Shown: positions 6,017 through 46,604 of the stretch, one piece after another
Position numbering within the stretch: the first letter of the stretch is position 1
How the letters are laid out: the number at the start of each line of letters is the position of its first letter
Source of the DNA: Loktanella sp.
GTDB taxonomy: Bacteria > Pseudomonadota > Alphaproteobacteria > Rhodobacterales > Rhodobacteraceae
Length of the DNA stretch: 64,000 nucleotides
Reading direction: 5' to 3'
NCBI GenBank assembly: GCA_017390475.1
Contig: JAFPBO010000014.1
Coordinates: 62,001-126,000 of the forward strand
Position numbers and translations under genes: made by a program
Notes under the pieces: model-generated
Databases searched by the model: none
Told to the model about the DNA's origin: nothing
What the model saw: only the letters and a program-made list of their open reading frames with translations

Positions 6017-6760
6017 ATGCCTGAAATCATGTCCCCACTGGCTGACCCCGCCTTTTGCCCTTTGGGGGTTGATGGCGTGCTGGTCCGGTTCGCGCGCGCG
6101 CTGACGGCAGAGGCGAATGCCAGCGCCAGCGGCTTTTGTGCGCAGATCAAGGCGGCGGCACTGCCAGGGGTGACAGAACTGGCATCGTCGCTGACCTCGG
6201 TGCGCGTAGGATTTGATCCGGCGGTGACGGACCGGCAGCGTATCACCGCACAGCTACGCGATCTGTTGACCGGTCTGCAAAGCGCCGACACCTCGCCCCG
6301 CCGCCTGTGGCGCATCCCGGTGGCATTCGGCCCAAGCCATGCGCCGCAGCTGCATGAAGCAGCGCAGCTTGCAGGGTTAACCGCCGAACAGGCTGTTGCA
6401 GAAATCACCACAACGATGCTGCGCGTGCTGGCAATCGGTTTTGCCCCCGGCCAGCCCTATCTGGGGCTGATGCCCCTGCATTGGGATATCCCACGCCAGT
6501 CAGACCTGACCCCGCATGTGCCGCGCGGCGCATTGGTCACGGCGGTGCGCCAGCTGATCATTTTCGCCGCCGATACCCCCACCGGCTGGCGGCAGATTGG
6601 ACAAAGCGCGTTCTCCGTCTGGCAGCCAGACAGCGACACGCCCTTCCTGCTGGATGCGGGGGACGGGTTGCAGTTCGTCGCGGTATCCGATGACACTTTG
6701 CGTGATCTGCAGGCCAATCCCGACAGCAATGGCGGCGCGCGCTGCGAGGTTTTGCGCTGA
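6017..6760 (+). CDS. pxpB: 5-oxoprolinase subunit PxpB (KipI / allophanate hydrolase subunit 1 family)
   Basis: With PxpA and PxpC it hydrolyses 5-oxo-L-proline to glutamate using ATP, in the cytoplasm. The family core IGFAPGQPYLG and the following ...PRGALVTAV...TPTGWRQIGQS segment are clear. Length is 247 residues with the ATG at 6017, chosen because AGGAG lies six bases upstream; an in-frame upstream extension has no such site. The stop overlaps the pxpC start (TGATG). The same fold occurs as urea amidolyase C-terminal parts, but the adjacent PxpA homologue favours 5-oxoprolinase. Confidence 0.9.
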   Translation: MPEIMSPLADPAFCPLGVDGVLVRFARALTAEANASASGFCAQIKAAALPGVTELASSLTSVRVGFDPAVTDRQRITAQLRDLLTGLQSADTSPRRLWRIPVAFGPSHAPQLHEAAQLAGLTAEQAVAEITTTMLRVLAIGFAPGQPYLGLMPLHWDIPRQSDLTPHVPRGALVTAVRQLIIFAADTPTGWRQIGQSAFSVWQPDSDTPFLLDAGDGLQFVAVSDDTLRDLQANPDSNGGARCEVLR

Positions 6761-38025: not shown

Positions 38026-39783
38026 CTATGACACCGCCTCTGGTGCGACCAGATGCCCGCCACCCAGATCGGTCAGGGCAAGCCGCGTGATCTGCTCACC
38101 GATCCGCCGCATCGGCGACGGCGGCTCACCCGCGGGGCGTAGATAAGGCAGCCGTGTGCGGGTCGGATCCGGGATCGGGACGGCCTCCAGCAGACGGCGG
38201 GTATAGGGGTGGCGCGGATTGCCGAATATCTGGTCGCGTGTGCCCATTTCCACGATCTGGCCCAGATACATCACAGCCAGCCGGTCGACGACATTTTCGA
38301 CCACTGCCATGTCGTGGCTGATGAACAGATAGGCCACGCCGAATTCGGCCTTCAACTCTTCCAACAGCGCCAGCACACGGGCCTGCACCGACACATCCAG
38401 CGCCGACACGCTTTCGTCGCAAATGATCAGCCGGGGCCGCAACGCCAACGCGCGGGCGACGCAGATGCGTTGCCGCTGGCCGCCGGAAAATTCATGCGGA
38501 TAGCGGGTCATCTGATCCGGAGTCAGCCCGACACGGCGAAAGAGTTCCGCCGTGCGATCATGTCGTTCGCTGGCCGTGCCGATCCCGTGGATCACCAAAG
38601 GTTCCGCGACCGCATCGCCGACCTTCATCCTTGGGTCGAGGGCGGCCATCGGGTCCTGAAACACCATCTGCACATCGCGGCAGATATCCTTGCGGCCCTG
38701 CGCGGTCAGACCCGCCAAGGATTTGCCATCCACATTGATCTGCCCCTGATGCGGGACCAAACCAACCAGCGCCTTGGCAATCGTGGATTTGCCACAGCCG
38801 CTTTCGCCGACAAGGCCAAAGGTCTCGCCGGGTTGGATGTCGAACGTCACACCTTCCACCGCATGCACGCGGTGGGTGGGACGGCCCAGAAAATTCGCGC
38901 CGATGTCGAAATGCACTTTCACATCGACCAATCGCGCCACCGGGACCAGTGCCTTGGGCGGCAAAGAGGCCGCACGTGCGGCCCCTGCCCCCAGCCGTGG
39001 CACAGCCGCCAACAGATCGCGGGTATATTCGGCTTGTGGGGCGGCGAAGACATCCGTCGTTCGCCCTTGCTCAACCATCCGGCCCGCCTGCATCACTACG
39101 ACGCGATCCGCCGTTTCCGCCACCACGCCCATATCATGCGTGATCAGGATGATCGCTGCGCCGGTCTGCTGCTGCAGGTCCCTGAGCAGTTCAAGCACCT
39201 CGCGCTGCACGGTCACATCCAATGCAGTCGTCGGTTCATCCGCGATCAGCAGCGCCGGACGCAAAGCCAGCGCCATGGCGATCATCACCCGCTGGCGCAT
39301 CCCGCCAGATAATTCATGCGGATATTGGCCCATCCGGCGTTCGGGTTCGGCAAGCCGCACTTGCCGCAAGGCTGCAATGGCTGCCACACGCGCCTGATTG
39401 CGCGACAGCGGCTCGTGCGCCCGGATCGCCTCGGTCAATTGCGTGCCGATGGTCTGCACCGGGTTCAGCGAGGTCATCGGCTCCTGAAAGATCATCGCCA
39501 CCTGCGCGCCGCGCAAAGGCCGCATCTGGTTTTCGTTGAGTTGCGTCAGATCGGTGCCGCCCAGCACCATCTGCCCAGATGTCACAGTCACATTGTTCGG
39601 CAATAAACCCATAAGCGCCAGTGAGGTGATGGATTTCCCCGACCCGCTTTCGCCTGCAATCGCCAGCGTTTCGCCCGCGCGGAGATCGAAACTCAGGTCC
39701 GAGACAAGGGGTTTCACCACCCCCCTGTCCCGGACCGAGACGGTCAGATCGCGGACTGACAGCAACGGATCAGGCATAGTCAT
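38026..39783 (-). CDS. ABC transporter, double ATP-binding subunit (DppD-DppF fusion type)
   Basis: Energises the peptide-type importer encoded upstream. 585 residues with two complete nucleotide-binding domains: GESGSGKS / LSGGMRQRVMIA in the first and GESGCGKST / FSGGQRQRICVARA in the second (from about residue 300). A C-terminal oligopeptide-transporter tail (NPRHPYTRRLLEAVP) is present. The ATG at 39783 overlaps the amidase stop by four bases. Last gene of the amide operon. Confidence 0.93.
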   Translation of the reverse strand: MTMPDPLLSVRDLTVSVRDRGVVKPLVSDLSFDLRAGETLAIAGESGSGKSITSLALMGLLPNNVTVTSGQMVLGGTDLTQLNENQMRPLRGAQVAMIFQEPMTSLNPVQTIGTQLTEAIRAHEPLSRNQARVAAIAALRQVRLAEPERRMGQYPHELSGGMRQRVMIAMALALRPALLIADEPTTALDVTVQREVLELLRDLQQQTGAAIILITHDMGVVAETADRVVVMQAGRMVEQGRTTDVFAAPQAEYTRDLLAAVPRLGAGAARAASLPPKALVPVARLVDVKVHFDIGANFLGRPTHRVHAVEGVTFDIQPGETFGLVGESGCGKSTIAKALVGLVPHQGQINVDGKSLAGLTAQGRKDICRDVQMVFQDPMAALDPRMKVGDAVAEPLVIHGIGTASERHDRTAELFRRVGLTPDQMTRYPHEFSGGQRQRICVARALALRPRLIICDESVSALDVSVQARVLALLEELKAEFGVAYLFISHDMAVVENVVDRLAVMYLGQIVEMGTRDQIFGNPRHPYTRRLLEAVPIPDPTRTRLPYLRPAGEPPSPMRRIGEQITRLALTDLGGGHLVAPEAVS

Positions 39784-40739
39784 GCGAAAACCGAGCGTGG
39801 GAAATAGAACGATACTACCCAATTGGGCATATCGACGATTTCCGATATCCGCAGATCGCCACAGGTCGACACCAGCATATAGGCATCGACCGCCGCCATG
39901 CCGTGCTGCGCGCAGAGCAGATCGACCATCTGTTCCACCGCTTGGCGCGCGCCGGTCATCAGGTCGGGGCCGATGCCGGTTGTGACCTCATAACCATCCG
40001 CGTCGATATGGCGGGTCACGGGGCCAGCCGTGGTAAAGCGCGGCATTTTCAGATTGGCACCTTTGACCAGATCCAGCGTCAGCGTCACATCCATCGGGCT
40101 TTCGATGGCGGTGCCGCAGACCTCGCCATCGCCTTGGGCGGCATGGGTGTCACCGACGGAAAACAGCGCCCCCGCGACCTCGACCGGCAGGTAAAGCACC
40201 GTGCCTTTGGCGATATCGCGGATGTCGAGATTGCCCCCCGTCCGGCGTGGCGGCACGATGGAATGCAGGCCGGGTTCCGCCTGCGCGACGCCAATGGTCC
40301 CGGTGAACGGCTTCAGCGCGACCTTGCCATGTGTGCCCCAAAGGGCGGGTTCCAGACTGACCGCATCGTATTTCCACAAGGTCAGTGCCGGATCAGTGAA
40401 CTGATCGGCAAGCAGCCCGAAACCGGGGATATTCGCCGTCCAGCCCCAGGCAGAGCCATCCTGCACGCGTGGTGCAAAGTCATGCAGAGTGATTTTCAGC
40501 GCATCGCCGGGTTCGGCTCCATCGACATAGATCGGGCCGGATACCGGATTGATCTTGCCGAAATCCAGAGCTGTGACGTCAGCTACCGTGCTCGACGGGC
40601 CAAGCTGGCCCGCCGATGAATCCTGACAGTGAAACAGGATCGTTGATCCGGGTGCGACCACCTCGGCCGGGGCAATGGAATTGTCCCAGCCGAAATGGTG
40701 CTGCGCCCCGTGGATCGTGTAGTCGCAGTTTTTGCACAT
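39780..40739 (-). CDS. fmdA: Acetamidase/formamidase family amidohydrolase
   Basis: Hydrolyses small aliphatic amides (formamide, acetamide) to ammonia and the acid in the cytoplasm. 319 residues. FHCQDSSAGQLGP and VGDTHAAQGDGEVCGTAIE are family hallmarks with metal-binding His/Asp/Glu. It lies between the solute-binding protein and the ATPase gene of a Dpp-type importer and behind AmiC/AmiR-type regulators, which supports an amide substrate. The exact amide is unknown. Confidence 0.88.
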   Translation of the reverse strand: MCKNCDYTIHGAQHHFGWDNSIAPAEVVAPGSTILFHCQDSSAGQLGPSSTVADVTALDFGKINPVSGPIYVDGAEPGDALKITLHDFAPRVQDGSAWGWTANIPGFGLLADQFTDPALTLWKYDAVSLEPALWGTHGKVALKPFTGTIGVAQAEPGLHSIVPPRRTGGNLDIRDIAKGTVLYLPVEVAGALFSVGDTHAAQGDGEVCGTAIESPMDVTLTLDLVKGANLKMPRFTTAGPVTRHIDADGYEVTTGIGPDLMTGARQAVEQMVDLLCAQHGMAAVDAYMLVSTCGDLRISEIVDMPNWVVSFYFPRSVFA

Positions 40740-40744
40740 CAGAT

Positions 40745-42364
40745 TTACTCGGTCACAAAGACATAGTCATAGTTGACAGGGATCGACACCGGATCGACAT
40801 AAAGCGCGTCATCACCCCCCATGCGGGCCGATTTCATCGTGTAGCGCTGTTCGTTGAACACCGGCACCCAAGGGGCTTCGGCCATCACATCCTGATAGAC
40901 CTGCGACCACATTTCCAGCCGCTCTGGTGCTGCAGGGTCGATGAAGCTGTCAGCTTCAACAGCCATGGCATCGATCCCTTCATTGCAGAATTTCGACCAG
41001 TTCCAGCCCCCCTCGCCCGCGCCGGCGCAACCGAGGATCGGGCCATAAAAGTTCGAGGGGTCCGGGAAATCAGCGATCCAGGCCATGCCGCCGGACCAGA
41101 TCATCGGCGCCTCTCCCGCGCCGCCAGCCTCGATCACATTGGCCTGTGCCAGACTGCGGATTTCCAGTGTCACGCCGATCTCTGCCAGATCCTGCTGGAT
41201 CGCTTGGGCGATCCGCGGGTTGGGGTCGGTGTTCATCACGTAAAGCTCGGTGGTGAAACCATCCGCAAAACCGGCCTCGGCCAGTTTGGCCTTGGCGGCT
41301 TCGACATCATACGCGAAACCATCGAACCCTTCGCTATAGCCTGGCATGCTGGGTGGCAGCGGCTGGGTGGCGGGCACAGCGCGCCCGTTGATGATCTGGA
41401 CGATCCGTTCCTTGTTGATCGCCATGTTCACCGCCTCGCGCACGGCAAGCTGATCGAACGGGGCAACGCCGACATTCAACGTGATATAGCCGGTATGCAA
41501 CTGGCCGCCTTCGATCACGCGCGCAGCCTGTTCAGGATCAGCCATGACTTCGACGAATTTCGCAGGCGGGATGCCGTCACCCGGCACGTCGACTTCACCC
41601 TGTTGCAAGCGAAGAAGTGCGACAATCGGCTCTTGCCCGACCTCAAAGGTGATGCCATCCAGATATGGTACGCCTTCACGCCAGTAATCGGCGTTCTTTT
41701 CAAAGACGACGCGCTGGCCGATGGTCCAGTCAGTCAGTTTAAACGCGCCCGTACCGACAGGGTTCTTGCCGAAATCATCGCCCATTTCCTCGACCACCTC
41801 TTGCGGCACGATGGAGGCAAAGTTCAGCCCCATCACATGCAGGAAGGTTGCATCAGGCCGTGACAGGGTGATCTGCACGGTCAGCGGATCAAGCACCTCG
41901 ACCCCCGCCAACGTCTCTGCCGCACCGCTTGAAATCTCGTCAAACCCGACAATCGACGCAAAGAACCCTGCGCCGGGCGATTGCGTGGCAGGCAAGGTCA
42001 CACGGTCGAGCGAATATTTGACATCTTCAGCCGTCATTTCACGGCCGTTGTGGAAGGTCACACCCTCACGCAGCGTGAAGGTAAAGACAGTGCCATCCTC
42101 GGACACCTCATAGCTTTCGGCCAGACCGGGGCGCAGATCGGTGGTGCCGGGGACATAATCCATCAGCCCGTCAAATAGCGATTTGATCATCGACCAGTTC
42201 TGCCAATCATAGCCGATGGCTGGGTCGAGCGTGGCGACATCATCCTTATAGGTGATGGTGATCATGCCACCCGGTGTCGCGGCGGGGTCAGGTGTGTAAT
42301 CCTGTGCCGCCAGCGGCAGCGCCATGGCAGCGATAAGAGCAGTCGAACAAAGCAGTTTTTTCAT
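40745..42364 (-). CDS. ABC transporter solute-binding protein, peptide family (SBP_bac_5)
   Basis: Periplasmic receptor of the importer. 539 residues with a signal peptide (MKKLLCSTALIAAMALPLAAQ). LRPGLAESYEVSEDGTVFTFTLREGVTFHNGREMTAEDV-type sequence near residues 70-115 is diagnostic of DppA/OppA proteins. The ATG at 42364 has AGGAA seven bases before it. In this operon it probably delivers an amide or amidated compound rather than peptides; this is inference. Confidence 0.92.
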   Translation of the reverse strand: MKKLLCSTALIAAMALPLAAQDYTPDPAATPGGMITITYKDDVATLDPAIGYDWQNWSMIKSLFDGLMDYVPGTTDLRPGLAESYEVSEDGTVFTFTLREGVTFHNGREMTAEDVKYSLDRVTLPATQSPGAGFFASIVGFDEISSGAAETLAGVEVLDPLTVQITLSRPDATFLHVMGLNFASIVPQEVVEEMGDDFGKNPVGTGAFKLTDWTIGQRVVFEKNADYWREGVPYLDGITFEVGQEPIVALLRLQQGEVDVPGDGIPPAKFVEVMADPEQAARVIEGGQLHTGYITLNVGVAPFDQLAVREAVNMAINKERIVQIINGRAVPATQPLPPSMPGYSEGFDGFAYDVEAAKAKLAEAGFADGFTTELYVMNTDPNPRIAQAIQQDLAEIGVTLEIRSLAQANVIEAGGAGEAPMIWSGGMAWIADFPDPSNFYGPILGCAGAGEGGWNWSKFCNEGIDAMAVEADSFIDPAAPERLEMWSQVYQDVMAEAPWVPVFNEQRYTMKSARMGGDDALYVDPVSIPVNYDYVFVTE

Positions 42365-42399
42365 GATGATCTTCCTGTTGTTGATGGTGGTTAATTGCT

Positions 42400-43320
42400 T
42401 CACCGCATCTTGATGCGCGGATCGATGAAGGGGGTGATGACGTCAGCCAAAAGATTGCCCAGCACGATGGCGGTCGCCGACACCATGGTGACCCCCATGA
42501 TGATCGGGATATCGACACGCTGGATTGCCTGCCAGGCAAGCTGCCCGATGCCGGGCCAGCCGAACACGCTTTCGACGACGACGAGCCCGCCCATGAAAAT
42601 GCCGATATCGATCCCGATCATCGCGATGATCGGCAGGATCGCATTAGGCAAGGCATGGCGGGTCAGAATTCGCGCACGGGTCAGCCCCTTGGCGCGCGCG
42701 GTGCGGATGTAATCCTGCCGCAGCACCTCGATCATCGACGACCGCATCATGCGCGAATACCAGCCTGATCCCATGATCCCCAGCGTGATCGCGGGCAGCA
42801 CCAGATGTGCGAAGGTGCCGTAACCGCCGATGGGAAACCAGCCAAGCTGGACGGCAAAGACGTATAGCAGCAGCAGACCGACCACGAATTGCGGGGCCGA
42901 GACGGCTACGAAACTGGTCACCATCAAGGCCTGATCCAAGGGCCGCCCGCGAAACATCGCAGCGATCACGCCCAGCGTTAGCCCGATCAGCAATTCGCAG
43001 AAAATCCCGCCCGCCATCAACAGCAAGGTCGCAGGCAGCCGCGAGGCGATCAGCGCCGACACTTCTGTCCTTTGCAGATAGCTGCGGCCCATATCACCTT
43101 GGACAAGCCCCGCCAGATAGCGGCCATATTGCACCAGCAACGGCTGATCCAACCCCAGTTGCTGGCGGATATTCTCCACCGTCTGCGCCGTAGCGGATCG
43201 GCCTGCAATCTGGCGCACCGGATCGGCTGGCAGGACGTAAAGCAGCACGAAAGTAATGAAACTGACGCCCAGCAGGATCAGCACGGCCTGAATAACGCGA
43301 CGCAACAGATATCCGGCCAT
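42400..43320 (-). CDS. ABC transporter permease, DppB type
   Basis: Inner-membrane subunit of the importer, 306 residues, six hydrophobic helices; the N-terminus YLLRRVIQAVLILLGVSFITFVLLYVLP-like segment and the EAA loop TARAKGLTRARILTRHALPNA are typical. The ATG overlaps the DppC-type stop (TGATG). Confidence 0.93.
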   Translation of the reverse strand: MAGYLLRRVIQAVLILLGVSFITFVLLYVLPADPVRQIAGRSATAQTVENIRQQLGLDQPLLVQYGRYLAGLVQGDMGRSYLQRTEVSALIASRLPATLLLMAGGIFCELLIGLTLGVIAAMFRGRPLDQALMVTSFVAVSAPQFVVGLLLLYVFAVQLGWFPIGGYGTFAHLVLPAITLGIMGSGWYSRMMRSSMIEVLRQDYIRTARAKGLTRARILTRHALPNAILPIIAMIGIDIGIFMGGLVVVESVFGWPGIGQLAWQAIQRVDIPIIMGVTMVSATAIVLGNLLADVITPFIDPRIKMR

Positions 43321-44213
43321 CAATCCTGCCCTCTTTGTGTGGGGTCCAGCACATCGCGCAAGGCATCACCGACCAGATTGAACGCCAATGCCAACAGCAG
43401 GATCGCGGCTCCCGGGATGAACACGAGCCACGGCGCGGCCTGAAAATAGGTCTGGTTTTCAAAGATGATATTGCCCCAGCTTGGCGTCGGCGGTTGCACC
43501 CCGACACCAAGGAAACTCAGGGTCGCCTCCAACAATACGGTGACCGAAATGCCCAAAGTCCCCCAGACAATCAGCGTCGGCACCAGATGCGGCAGGATAT
43601 GCCGGAACAGGATGCGCGATTGTGATGCGCCCAAGGTGCGTTCGGCGGCGATGAACTCACGCTCTGACAGGCTGGTGGTTTCAGTATAGACCACACGCGC
43701 AGTCTGCACCCAGTTCACCAGCGCGATGACCATCGCCACGATCCAGAGCGAGGGCTGGAAAATCGCCGCCAGACAAATCGCCAGCAACAGCGCCGGAAAG
43801 GCCATCATCAGATCAGTAAAGCGCATCAGCACCGACCCGATCCAGCCCCGCAGAAACCCCGCAGTCAGCCCGATCAATGTACCGATGATCAGCGCCGCGC
43901 CATTCGCCACCACCCCGATGATCAGCGAGGTGCGCGCGCCGTAAAGGATACGGCTGAACAAATCGCGCCCTAGCAGGTCCGTGCCCATCAGAAAGTCGCC
44001 GCCCGGCGGCATCGGTGCGCCTTGCAGGGTCAGACCGTCGAACAATTGCTCGTTCGGGCCATAGCGCACCAGCCAAGGCGCAAAGATCGCCCCACCCACG
44101 ACGATGAAAATGATCGCAAAGCCGAACAAAGCAAGCTTGCGGCGTAGCAGGCGGCGGAAGACACCCGCGCCGCCCTTGGGCGCCTGCAAGGGGATCGGGG
44201 CGATATCAACCAT
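43320..44213 (-). CDS. ABC transporter permease, DppC type
   Basis: Second permease subunit, 297 residues, six helices. LMGTDLLGRDLFSRILYGARTS and the EAA loop AAERTLGASQSRILFRHILPH mark the DppC family. The ATG at 44213 lies inside the end of the antiterminator gene and has AGGAG seven bases upstream; a GTG six bases earlier is less likely. Confidence 0.93.
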   Translation of the reverse strand: MVDIAPIPLQAPKGGAGVFRRLLRRKLALFGFAIIFIVVGGAIFAPWLVRYGPNEQLFDGLTLQGAPMPPGGDFLMGTDLLGRDLFSRILYGARTSLIIGVVANGAALIIGTLIGLTAGFLRGWIGSVLMRFTDLMMAFPALLLAICLAAIFQPSLWIVAMVIALVNWVQTARVVYTETTSLSEREFIAAERTLGASQSRILFRHILPHLVPTLIVWGTLGISVTVLLEATLSFLGVGVQPPTPSWGNIIFENQTYFQAAPWLVFIPGAAILLLALAFNLVGDALRDVLDPTQRGQD

Positions 44214-44796
44214 GATCACTCTCCTGAGGTCCGGCGTTGGAGACGATGCGTTCTGCCGCTTCCTCGAAACTCACCCGCCAGGCCATCGCCATCGCGCGCA
44301 GCTGGTCATAGGCGGCATCTTCCGACTTGCCCCGCGCGGCCAGCAAGGCCACGGCGCGCACCACAGTTTGCCGCTGCCCCAACCGCGCGCGCAGGCTGGT
44401 AATCCGGTCGGCCATTTCGGCGCGTGCGTCAAAAGTCGCGCGCGCAATCAGCAAGGCGGAATAGACGCCGCCCGTTCCCACAGGTTTCAAAATCTGCGCA
44501 TCAGCGCCAAAATTCATCAGCCATTCGATGCGCCCCGGTGCCTCGGACCCGACAAGGGCGATAGTGGGCATCGGGGCCTGACCTGCAGGCCAAGGGAATT
44601 GATCGTCATAGGCGGTATCGACGTCCAGAAACAGGTAATCGCTGCTGCGCGCCGCTGCAGGCAGATCGGGCCAATAACTGACGGCCTGCAACCCGATCGC
44701 CTCTAACTGGCGGGTCAGGGCAACCACTGTCGCATGCGGGCGATGCAGGATCGCAGCATTTGCACCGCCCAGTTCGGGGATCTGCAAGCGCCGCAT
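44206..44796 (-). CDS. amiR: ANTAR-domain antiterminator, AmiR/NasT type
   Basis: RNA-binding antitermination regulator of 196 residues. The N-terminal part is a pseudo-receiver (LFLDVDTAYDD, PTIALVGSEAPGRIEWLMNFGADAQILKP). A coiled coil (residues 120-140) leads to the ANTAR helices VVRAVALLAARGKSEDAAYDQLRAMAMAWRVSFEEAAERIV, shown here in parts: LLAARGKSEDAAYDQLR and AMAWRVSFEEAAERIV. As with Pseudomonas AmiR it should be held inactive by the AmiC-like protein and act on the operon leader. ATG overlaps the amiC stop (TGATG). Confidence 0.88.
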   Translation of the reverse strand: MRRLQIPELGGANAAILHRPHATVVALTRQLEAIGLQAVSYWPDLPAAARSSDYLFLDVDTAYDDQFPWPAGQAPMPTIALVGSEAPGRIEWLMNFGADAQILKPVGTGGVYSALLIARATFDARAEMADRITSLRARLGQRQTVVRAVALLAARGKSEDAAYDQLRAMAMAWRVSFEEAAERIVSNAGPQESDHG

Positions 44797-45890
44797 CACG
44801 TTACCACTCGCAAGGCCGGGCGCGGCGTGTCGCGACCCATCGTCAGGTACGGATCACCTTCGACCAGACCCATGGATTTCAACGGTACAAAGGCACCGTC
44901 CTGCACCTGTGCAATCACCACCGGCAGGCTGGTGTGATGGGTGCGCGCATTGATCCCCATCTGCGTTGCCTTCGGCAAGGCCAACAGGTCCGCCAGTGGC
45001 AACATCTCTGCCCCCGGATGATCATTCAGCAAATGCGCCAGCATCATGACAGAGGCATGCGCCGCCGCCTCGAACGATGAGCCAAAATCGCACCCCTCAC
45101 CCTGCGCCAGATCAGGCATCCCGCGGAACCACGGCCCAGCGGCGATAACGCCTTCGCCCGCATCGCCGATAGCGGGCAATTCGCATTCGGTCAGGTTGCA
45201 GGACAGCACCGGGCAATTACCTTGCGCGAAATAGGGATCTTTGGCGCGCAGTTCAGCCATGACCTGCAAAAACGCATATTGGGATGGGCCGATCAGCTGG
45301 TTCAGCACGAAATCCGGTCGTAGTTCGGCAATTTCATCGACAATCCGCGCCACATCGGTCGCCCCCAGCGGCAAATAGCGTTCGCCGAGAACAGACCCAC
45401 CGGCACGCATCCCGATTTCGCGCGCCAGCCGGTTCATCTCCCATCCCCAGATGTAATTCGACCCGGTCAGGTAGCTGCGCGTCCCATGCCGGGCAAAGGC
45501 GTGATCGAGCAATGGCAACAGGTGCTGGTTCGGGCAGGCATGGGTATAGACGATGCGATCCGAAGTCTCGAACCCTTCATGCGGCACCGGATACCACAGC
45601 GCGCCATCAGCCCGTTCAAGTGCAGGGATCACTTCCTTACGGCTCCAGGATGTGGTGCAGCCAATGACATGGCGCGCAGCGGTTTCGCGCAGGATGTCTT
45701 CGCACATCGGGGCATAGGCATCGACATTCCCCTGCGGATCACGGGTGACAGCGCGGAAGGCAATGTCAAAAGCCGGATCAGCATTGACCTGCGCGATACC
45801 TTTCAAGGCGCCGGTCAGGCTCGCCTCACCCAACAGGCTGTAGGTGCCAGAGCGCGAAAACAAAATGCCAAGGTCGATCTTGCGTTTCAA
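44796..45890 (-). CDS. amiC: AmiC-like amide sensor (cytoplasmic periplasmic-binding fold)
   Basis: Type I binding-protein fold without a signal peptide, 364 residues, like AmiC, which binds small amides and releases AmiR. DLGILFSRSGTYSLLGEASL at the N-terminus, IGCTTSWSRKEVIPALE and GSNYIWGWEMNRLAREIG support this. No ATG fits: the frame opens with TTG at 45890, only 16 bases after a terminator hairpin, with a weak GAAAG as ribosome site. Inefficient initiation may be part of the control. First gene of the seven-gene amide operon. Confidence 0.88.
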   Translation of the reverse strand: MKRKIDLGILFSRSGTYSLLGEASLTGALKGIAQVNADPAFDIAFRAVTRDPQGNVDAYAPMCEDILRETAARHVIGCTTSWSRKEVIPALERADGALWYPVPHEGFETSDRIVYTHACPNQHLLPLLDHAFARHGTRSYLTGSNYIWGWEMNRLAREIGMRAGGSVLGERYLPLGATDVARIVDEIAELRPDFVLNQLIGPSQYAFLQVMAELRAKDPYFAQGNCPVLSCNLTECELPAIGDAGEGVIAAGPWFRGMPDLAQGEGCDFGSSFEAAAHASVMMLAHLLNDHPGAEMLPLADLLALPKATQMGINARTHHTSLPVVIAQVQDGAFVPLKSMGLVEGDPYLTMGRDTPRPALRVVT

Positions 45891-45906
45891 TGCAGTGCTT
45901 TCAACG

Positions 45907-45923
45907 AAAAAAGCCCCGCTTTT
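45907..45923 (-). terminator. Leader terminator before amiC
   Basis: On the minus strand AAAAGC-GGG-GCTTTT is followed by TT, a small stem with a T run ending 16 bases before the amiC start. A terminator between promoter and first gene is what an AmiR/NasT-type antiterminator would control. Confidence 0.55.
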
Positions 45924-45955
45924 CCCGGCAAACGCAGGTTGCGGTTGCAGGAAAA
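45920..45955 (-). promoter_or_regulatory. Alternative (antiterminator-like) hairpin in the amiC leader
   Basis: TTTTCC (45955-45950) can pair with GGAAAA (45925-45920). Inside, GCAA pairs with TTGC and CGCA with TGCG around ACC. The long stem uses the same AAAA that forms the left arm of the terminator, so the two structures exclude each other. The canonical paired hexaloops of ANTAR target RNAs are not obvious. Confidence 0.5.
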
Positions 45956-45986
45956 ACGAGGCGTGAATGCCGGATATGTCATGGCC

Positions 45987-46015
45987 ATCTCGGCCAAGAT
46001 TCGCGGCTTTGTCAA
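45987..46015 (-). promoter_or_regulatory. Possible promoter of the amide operon
   Basis: A perfect TTGACA (46015-46010) is followed after 17 bases by CGAGAT (45992-45987), a poor -10 element. The start would give a leader of roughly 90 bases containing both hairpins. Confidence 0.35.
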
Positions 46016-46145
46016 CTGTTCGCCGGCGACAATGGCCCAGACCACCGGCAAGCGCCTGAATTTTAGGCAGCTAGCACAGCTTTTACAGGCATTGGTCCAG
46101 CAGAGCGTAATTCTGGCGCTGCGAGATCACAGAGCCGCCCATATA

Positions 46146-46604
46146 TCAGTCAGTTTCAACCAGTAACGGCGGCGCAGAATGAGAGTTCAGATTTTCATCG
46201 CCACGCAGCATGGTCCGTTCTGCATCTGCGCGGTTTTCTTCGACAATATCGCCGATCTCGCCATTATGGGCCTCTTCAAATGTCATCAGCGCGATCGCCT
46301 CGCTGGCCTGTGAAAGTTGGGCCTGCGCAAACTCTTTCAGCTGGGGATCATTAAAGACTTTGTCAGAATCCTCAAACAGCACATCGCATTGCACGTCCTC
46401 GAAATCTGCCGCGCATTCCGTCACGACCGCACGGACTGGTCCGCAATTCGTGGCATTGGGCATGGCGACACATTCACTGACGATTGGCACGAAAGTCGCC
46501 GATTCCTGCGCAGTTTCCGCTTGGGTCTGCGCGCTGATAGCGAAGGGAAGGACACTGAAACAAAGCCCAACTGCACCAGCCGCATATAAAATTTTGAACG
46601 GCAT
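46146..46604 (-). CDS. Small exported protein of unknown function
   Basis: 152 residues with a signal peptide (LYAAGAVGLCFSVLPFAISAQ). The mature part holds four cysteines (SECVAMPNATNCG, TECAADFEDVQCD) in a pattern suggesting two disulfides, then an acidic helical tail (LKEFAQAQLSQASEAIALM). AGGAGAAAATA precedes the ATG. No domain recognised. Stands alone between the amide operon and the reductase gene. Confidence 0.7.
   Translation of the reverse strand: MPFKILYAAGAVGLCFSVLPFAISAQTQAETAQESATFVPIVSECVAMPNATNCGPVRAVVTECAADFEDVQCDVLFEDSDKVFNDPQLKEFAQAQLSQASEAIALMTFEEAHNGEIGDIVEENRADAERTMLRGDENLNSHSAPPLLVETD

Follow-up and report, generated by a model that had tools for sequence, protein, structure and literature searches.

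The window, the whole 64,000-nt stretch of Loktanella sp. DNA that was analysed, carries an operon of seven minus-strand genes. An amiC-like sensor gene with a TTG start (44796..45890; Peripla_BP_5/6 domain match) comes first and amiR (44206..44799), assigned by Pfam to an AmiR_N plus ANTAR antiterminator protein, comes second; domain matches mark the others as two Opp/Nik-type ABC permeases (43320..44219 and 42400..43323), an SBP_bac_5 solute-binding protein (40745..42403), an FmdA_AmdA acetamidase/formamidase family enzyme (39780..40739; PF03069, 201.8 bits) and a double ABC-transporter ATPase (38026..39822). The AmiR protein scores 43.6 bits against PF21332 (cut-off 27) and 38.5 bits against PF03861 (cut-off 27.3), and its closest solved chain is the AmiR of 1qo0 (E 4.8e-6). 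No hydrophobic signal peptide was seen by eye on the AmiC-like protein, and a distant second AmiC relative, with 30% identity, is encoded elsewhere in the genome (G000:C19:25823-26398). The FmdA_AmdA protein reaches 132.9 against an NCBIfam formamidase cut-off of 500, far under it, and therefore formamide cannot be taken as its established substrate. An open frame upstream on the same strand (46146-46604) stops at 46146, which leaves about 180 nt between it and the terminator described below.

The leader of amiC, also on the minus strand, begins with a putative -35 element TTGACA (46010..46015) and a weak -10 element, CGAGAT/GAGATG (45992-45986), from which transcription would start at about 45980. 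Two hairpins follow. The first, termed P2, is a candidate antiterminator hairpin GGC-ATTCAC-GCC (45960..45971), with a 3 bp stem and a hexaloop holding A1, C4 and A5. The second is a long intrinsic terminator hairpin (45913..45962), GCCUCGUUUUUCC...GGGAAAAGCGGGGC, with a folding energy of about -31 to -32.5 kcal/mol, whose stem ends in GGGGC and is immediately followed by a UUUUUU tract (45907..45912). Its nucleotides 1-3 (45962-45960) are the 3′ arm, GCC, of P2. The leader folds more stably than its dinucleotide shuffles (z -3.14), as only 1 of 200 shuffles was as good. The initial annotation had described the TTGACA element (46015-46010), a short and a long hairpin, the TTG start codon (45890) and, in second place in the operon, an ANTAR gene, all of which are present; it overlooked P2, which lies inside the region it dealt with.

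Among the marks of an ANTAR-target RNA, the window leader thus has a hexaloop with A1 on at least 3 bp of stem, and an overlap of P2 with an intrinsic terminator through the GCC common to both, but neither G4 nor a dual arrangement of P1 and P2 joined by a short linker. That a standard dual hexaloop was missing had been noticed before, and indeed the leader contains no A1/G4 hexaloop: the only A..G.. hexaloop with at least three pairs in 45850-46150 lies within amiC (45882-45869). A search of the leader for Rfam families returned none above gathering score, the best being mir-320 with E 2.2, far below its own gathering score.

P2, terminator and promoter in related amiC leaders

The upstream regions of amiC were compared at 80 loci from GTDB contigs, the 80 top-ranking of 191 confirmed relatives, which with the window make 81 regions. 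Searched with the pattern GGC-N6-GCC, allowing any loop and not demanding A1, 80 of the 81 regions, the window included, hold such an element adjoining the terminator, and loop position 1 is A in all 80 elements found. Position 4 is C in 62, A in 11, T in 6 and G in 1, the window having C, while position 5 is G58 A21 T1. The earlier suggestion that the RNA recognition element may be a variant one is well supported by the comparison. The sole region without the pattern, L044, keeps the terminator, and its 5′ GGC and promoter appear to have given way to other sequence, through either natural loss or a junction in the assembly. L044 was left out of all P2 tables, and L066, in which the 3′ arm was mis-picked, out of the alignment (A1). 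A sigma-54 reading of GGCA..GC was rejected for its wrong spacing by eye, and a second A1 hexaloop 3′ of P2 was also rejected, with 3 of 27 leaders of promoter type A (2.8 in shuffles) and 10 of 52 of type B (6.9 in shuffles), the types being defined below.

The terminator was assessed on the 79 aligned leaders, 76 of them distinct, with identical rows counted once. The six basal pairs of its stem are paired in 98.0% of cases, and the three pairs made by GCC are kept in 76, 76 and 75 of the 76 distinct leaders. Two-sided changes in the six basal pairs number 36, against a shuffle mean of 11.0 and none of 500 shuffles with as many, and sliding the register lowers the pairing to 36.6-62.5%. In P2 the three stem pairs never vary, so that covariation says nothing on P2 either way. 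Of the check that the initial annotation had proposed, covariation in both stems, the part concerning the terminator stem gave a positive answer for the true terminator, and the part concerning the antiterminator stem was silent.

The spacing between a -35-like TTG and P2 sorts the leaders into two types. Those of type A, with an exact TTGAC 43-48 nt 5′ of P2, number 27 including the window; type B, at 49-60 nt, comprises 52, of which 37 have an exact TTGAC (51-60 nt); one leader falls outside both. The position of P2 is fixed to the terminator rather than to the promoter. In a FastTree tree of AmiC, many forks of which are weak, the window clade consists of 16 type A rows and L044; the tree also includes L062, a very long row that is probably a frame-shifted artefact.

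The two types differ in a P1-like hairpin, defined as having at least 4 bp with 3 GC pairs and ending no more than 5 nt from P2. Among the 27 leaders of type A not one has it, where simple shuffles give 1.3; in type B it occurs in 32 of the 52 (2.9 by simple shuffles), and there it ends 1-4 nt before P2; 20 of the 52 lack it, and the unclassified leader has one too. Its loop measures 5 nt in 19, 6 nt in 11 and 7 nt in 1 of 31 cases. P1 pairs were tallied by hand: every inner pair is standard in the 26 distinct forms, as is the outermost in 20 of them, with a few compensatory changes.

These counts bear on the possibility that the leaders are of the canonical dual-hexaloop kind and that P1 was missed, either because transcription starts further upstream or because the P1 of type A has another form. 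The -10 element of the window is weak, a best -10 with A2 and T6 occurs in 17 of 27 type A leaders as against 34 of 37 of type B, and the window has a tggccg-AGA-tggcca inverted repeat 10 nt 5′ of P2. However, the P1-like hairpin that is frequent in type B is absent throughout type A, an A1 hexaloop 3′ of P2 is no commoner than chance, and the canonical A..G.. hexaloop was rejected, being found in 8 of 80 leaders against 9.55 in shuffles, which is chance level. If the type A promoter is right, about 7-12 nt of RNA would precede P2, which is too little for P1. We regard a missed P1 as unlikely. Further P1-like or A..G.. hairpins were seen beside P2 elsewhere. In L214-L219 (family f160, same class), P1 is CCGGC-7 nt-GCCGG, 2 nt before P2, whose loops read AAGAAT, AAATGT or AAGTGT; in the sister operons of L124-L127, A..G.. 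hexaloops (AACGGC, AATGGC, AATGAA) lie about 50 nt 5′ of P2, beyond the published EutV linkers.

The invariance of the GGC and GCC arms, which show no covariation, is also what a protein-DNA site would look like, and GGC-A-N5-GCC could be a DNA operator of another regulator beside an ordinary terminator. Yet the element is not a DNA palindrome, as A1 is fixed and position 6 is C34 G30 A14 T2; the distance to the promoter shifts while the overlap with the terminator stays exact; and the NasT-like leader of the same genome, described below, has the same geometry. An operator is accordingly quite improbable. Still less can be said for the view that the hairpin constitutively terminates the upstream gene (46146-46604), or acts as a general damper, without any action of AmiR: although that same-strand frame does end nearby, the hairpin adjoins amiC in 80 leaders with GGCA ahead of each, and none of the other sites scored in the window genome is comparable, so that we give this account very little weight. 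The initial annotation took a short hairpin, AAAAGC-GGG-GCTTTT, for the terminator and gave the role of antiterminator to the longer one. The sequence does allow both hairpins, but this scheme is the least credible of all, because the long hairpin is far stabler (about -32 against -7.8 kcal/mol), ends exactly at U6 and has a base that covaries in relatives; some hairpin with 6 or more pairs that extends into the U tract is possible in 34 of 80 leaders (the window included), mostly with other pairings. The two roles had been swapped.

AmiR, NasT-like loci and the reach of the element

The gene of the partner protein, amiR, accompanies amiC in 79 of the 80 loci; L071, the exception, stops 154 nt past amiC. 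At the positions by which EutV contacts RNA, the 79 AmiR proteins keep R142 (79), M172 (79), R168 (78), R175 (76) and Y164 (75, with F in the other 4), and the positions of N173 and R177 are mostly changed. K149 of EutV is replaced by V in all 79 loci, as in the window. According to passages of PMC8934654, K149 hydrogen-bonds G4 together with R142 and E160. The window AmiR thus has R, V, E and Y where the G4-contacting set of EutV is R142, K149, E160 and Y164. Pseudomonas aeruginosa AmiR has Q, K, E and H there, and therefore the R/K/E/Y set is a feature of EutV and not of AmiR.

Over the 117 P2 loops that were read, GGCA being required, position 4 is C75 A20 T13 G9. The nine loci with G4 (L094, L117, L121, L125, L127, L140, L229, L234, L238) encode AmiRs with V or I at 149. 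K149 is present in the NasT-like protein of the window genome and in L129, L131, L132, L135-L139, L153, L224 and L230; of the K149 amiR loci, the only one read around a model hit, L135, has GGC-AAGGAT-GCC, with G4, after amiR. A strict co-change of residue 149 with loop G4 was rejected, since operons with G4 loops also occur without K149, and what these sequences suggest is an association at the level of lineages only.

The window genome encodes a second ANTAR protein beside an NMT1_2 protein, a pair that would be NasT/NasS-like. Before its NMT1_2 gene (L134; G000:C42:6000-13000, ~6203-6277) stand ccgc-AATGAT-gcgg and, after 14 nt, ggc-AACGTC-gcc, the gcc of which begins a terminator in a geometry like that of the window P2; these dual A1-G4 hexaloops are of the canonical kind, and immediately 5′ of them is a third loop, ctgc-AACGAT-gcag. 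A nasS-like set was assembled from 120 genomes of the family, 41 of which had a match, giving 30 loci. Behind these genes an A1-G4 hexaloop with at least 4 bp occurs in 26 of 30 (3.5 in shuffles), while position 4 is A in 4, C in 5 and T in 2 (2.4, 3.4 and 2.8 in shuffles); a tighter scan, in which the 3′ arm had to carry a terminator, left a candidate in 11 of 30, 8 of them with G4. With the reserve that the stem criteria are unequal (3 bp for amiC, 4 bp for nasS-like loci), position 4 of the loop distinguishes the two classes of ANTAR target.

Beyond the first 80 loci, the P2 element was sought within 100 nt of amiC. It was found in 12 of 19 more distant sister loci (L115-L133), and not at amiC in the other seven, L116 and L128-L133; in 39 of 39 of L185-L223, many from the same species as the first set; and in 3 of 16 of L224-L239. 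In L140 and L142, from other families, it lies 135-150 nt upstream of amiC, and no P2 element was found at amiC in L135-L138, L144, L145 and L153. Another amiC-amiR subfamily (L226-L228, L231) has GGGC-A-N5-GCCC 131-138 nt upstream of amiC, together with a conserved ATTTCCAAC and a terminator-like stretch starting near ggc-GAGGGC-gcc, possibly a long-linker version of the arrangement.

A model, R1, was built on 79 leaders with the window in the seed. In the window genome, where 150 of 4116 first-look candidates were scored, it gives 34 bits to the window site and 20.7 (E 0.83) to the next. It recovers unseeded amiC leaders, among them L214, L215, L217, L220 and L221, and reaches into other families; at E up to 1 it has no match for L125-L127, L223 and L234, among others. 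Across 60 relatives, 5 genomes gave 6 matches between them at E up to 0.1; of these, the window, G394 (the L140 locus) and, at a glance, L249 were looked at, and the first two were recognised as amiC leaders. A strict pattern matched once in the window genome (0 in the reversed control) and in 113 of 394 family genomes (13 matches in the reversed control); many of the matching strings form no continuous stem by eye, and the pattern therefore cannot count the element. A regulon acting in trans in the window genome was rejected, as only the window site stands out by the strict pattern and, among the candidates scored, by R1.

Proposed attenuation and comparison with known ANTAR systems

Based on the layout of P2 on the terminator, its conservation and the linkage of amiC and amiR, we propose that attenuation by the ANTAR protein AmiR is likely, and we put at roughly 75% the probability that a cis-acting, AmiR-dependent transcription attenuator controls the operon. 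By default, the RNA begun at about 45980 would form the terminator hairpin (45962-45913) followed by U6, and transcription would stop before amiC. Upon induction, a small ligand, presumably an amide, would free AmiR from AmiC, and an AmiR dimer could capture GGC-ATTCAC-GCC as soon as this hexaloop hairpin leaves the polymerase. This capture would keep GCC from pairing with GGC in the 3′ arm of the terminator, so that the base of the stem at the U tract is opened or blocked, and read-through would allow all seven genes, with amiC and amiR among them, to be transcribed. The self-contained cis attenuation by AmiC and AmiR that the initial annotation had suggested is supported by the comparison, and its pair of terminator and antiterminator is not.

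P2 and the base of the terminator are mutually exclusive, because GCC is common to both. When P2 was enforced in folding, three basal pairs were lost and the energy rose from -32.5 to -27.0, which would leave the larger part of the terminator free to fold. As only three pairs are lost, the block would have to come from the loss of the pairs on the U-tract side or from the bound AmiR dimer standing in the way. Terminator pairs next to the U tract are those that matter most. Binding by AmiR, the ligand and the sufficiency of losing or masking the basal pairs are what we infer for this step. More tentatively, and with slightly less than even confidence, the AmiR of this clade may read a single GGC-[A-N-N-C-R-N]-GCC hairpin, with no G4 and no P1, and thus be insulated from NasT, which would read A1-G4 hexaloops in the same cell; this would amount to a second code of ANTAR recognition in alphaproteobacteria.

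Present models of ANTAR action derive mostly from EutV and NasR and hold that A1 and G4 are needed and that P1 has to recruit the dimer before P2, racing the polymerase. Passages of the EutV studies describe dual hairpins, A1 and G4, and the linker length as all mattering (PMC3369931), and one hexaloop as the minimal binding unit, with P1 required in vivo and single hexaloops expected only where the time limit set by the polymerase is missing (PMC8934654). For NasR, parts of PMC7496416 report a preference for A1 and G4, with about 12 uM for a single hairpin against 1 uM for two; for actinobacterial ANTAR RNAs, the text seen of PMC8164766 gives A1 and G4 as kept in more than half; and a NasT leader of Paracoccus denitrificans is treated in the portion seen of PMC5424462. 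The type A leaders look like natural one-hairpin, non-G4 cases sitting directly on the terminator, while orthologous operons have P1. Such leaders make it testable whether P1 is required and what sets the specificity of two ANTAR circuits in one cell, and published covariance searches, if they insist on dual A1/G4 loops, would probably overlook them. In the open-licence literature, no paper on this leader class was found by title or abstract opening, which is weak evidence of novelty.

The window leader resembles that of amiE in P. aeruginosa, with its AmiR-AmiC pair, in having an AmiC-like sensor, an AmiR of AmiR_N plus ANTAR, a leader terminator and an amide operon. However, the amiE leader, known here by description only, has two A1/G4 hexaloops according to a passage of PMC3369931, whereas the window has one without G4, and the attenuated operon here begins with amiC-amiR. 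As in the eut leaders read by EutV of Enterococcus faecalis, a small A1 hexaloop hairpin overlaps the 5′ arm of an intrinsic terminator, although EutV needs P1, a set linker and A1 plus G4 in vivo (in the parts seen of PMC3369931 and PMC8934654) and the window leader lacks P1 and G4. With the NasT/NasS-type leader of its own genome it shares a P2 of the form GGC-hexaloop-GCC whose GCC starts the terminator, but that leader has two hexaloops with a linker of 14 nt, of the A1-G4 kind prevailing behind nasS-like genes. Therefore, the amiC leader is probably an attenuator of the AmiR type whose recognition element is a variant one, departing from the ANTAR leaders described so far in G4 and P1.
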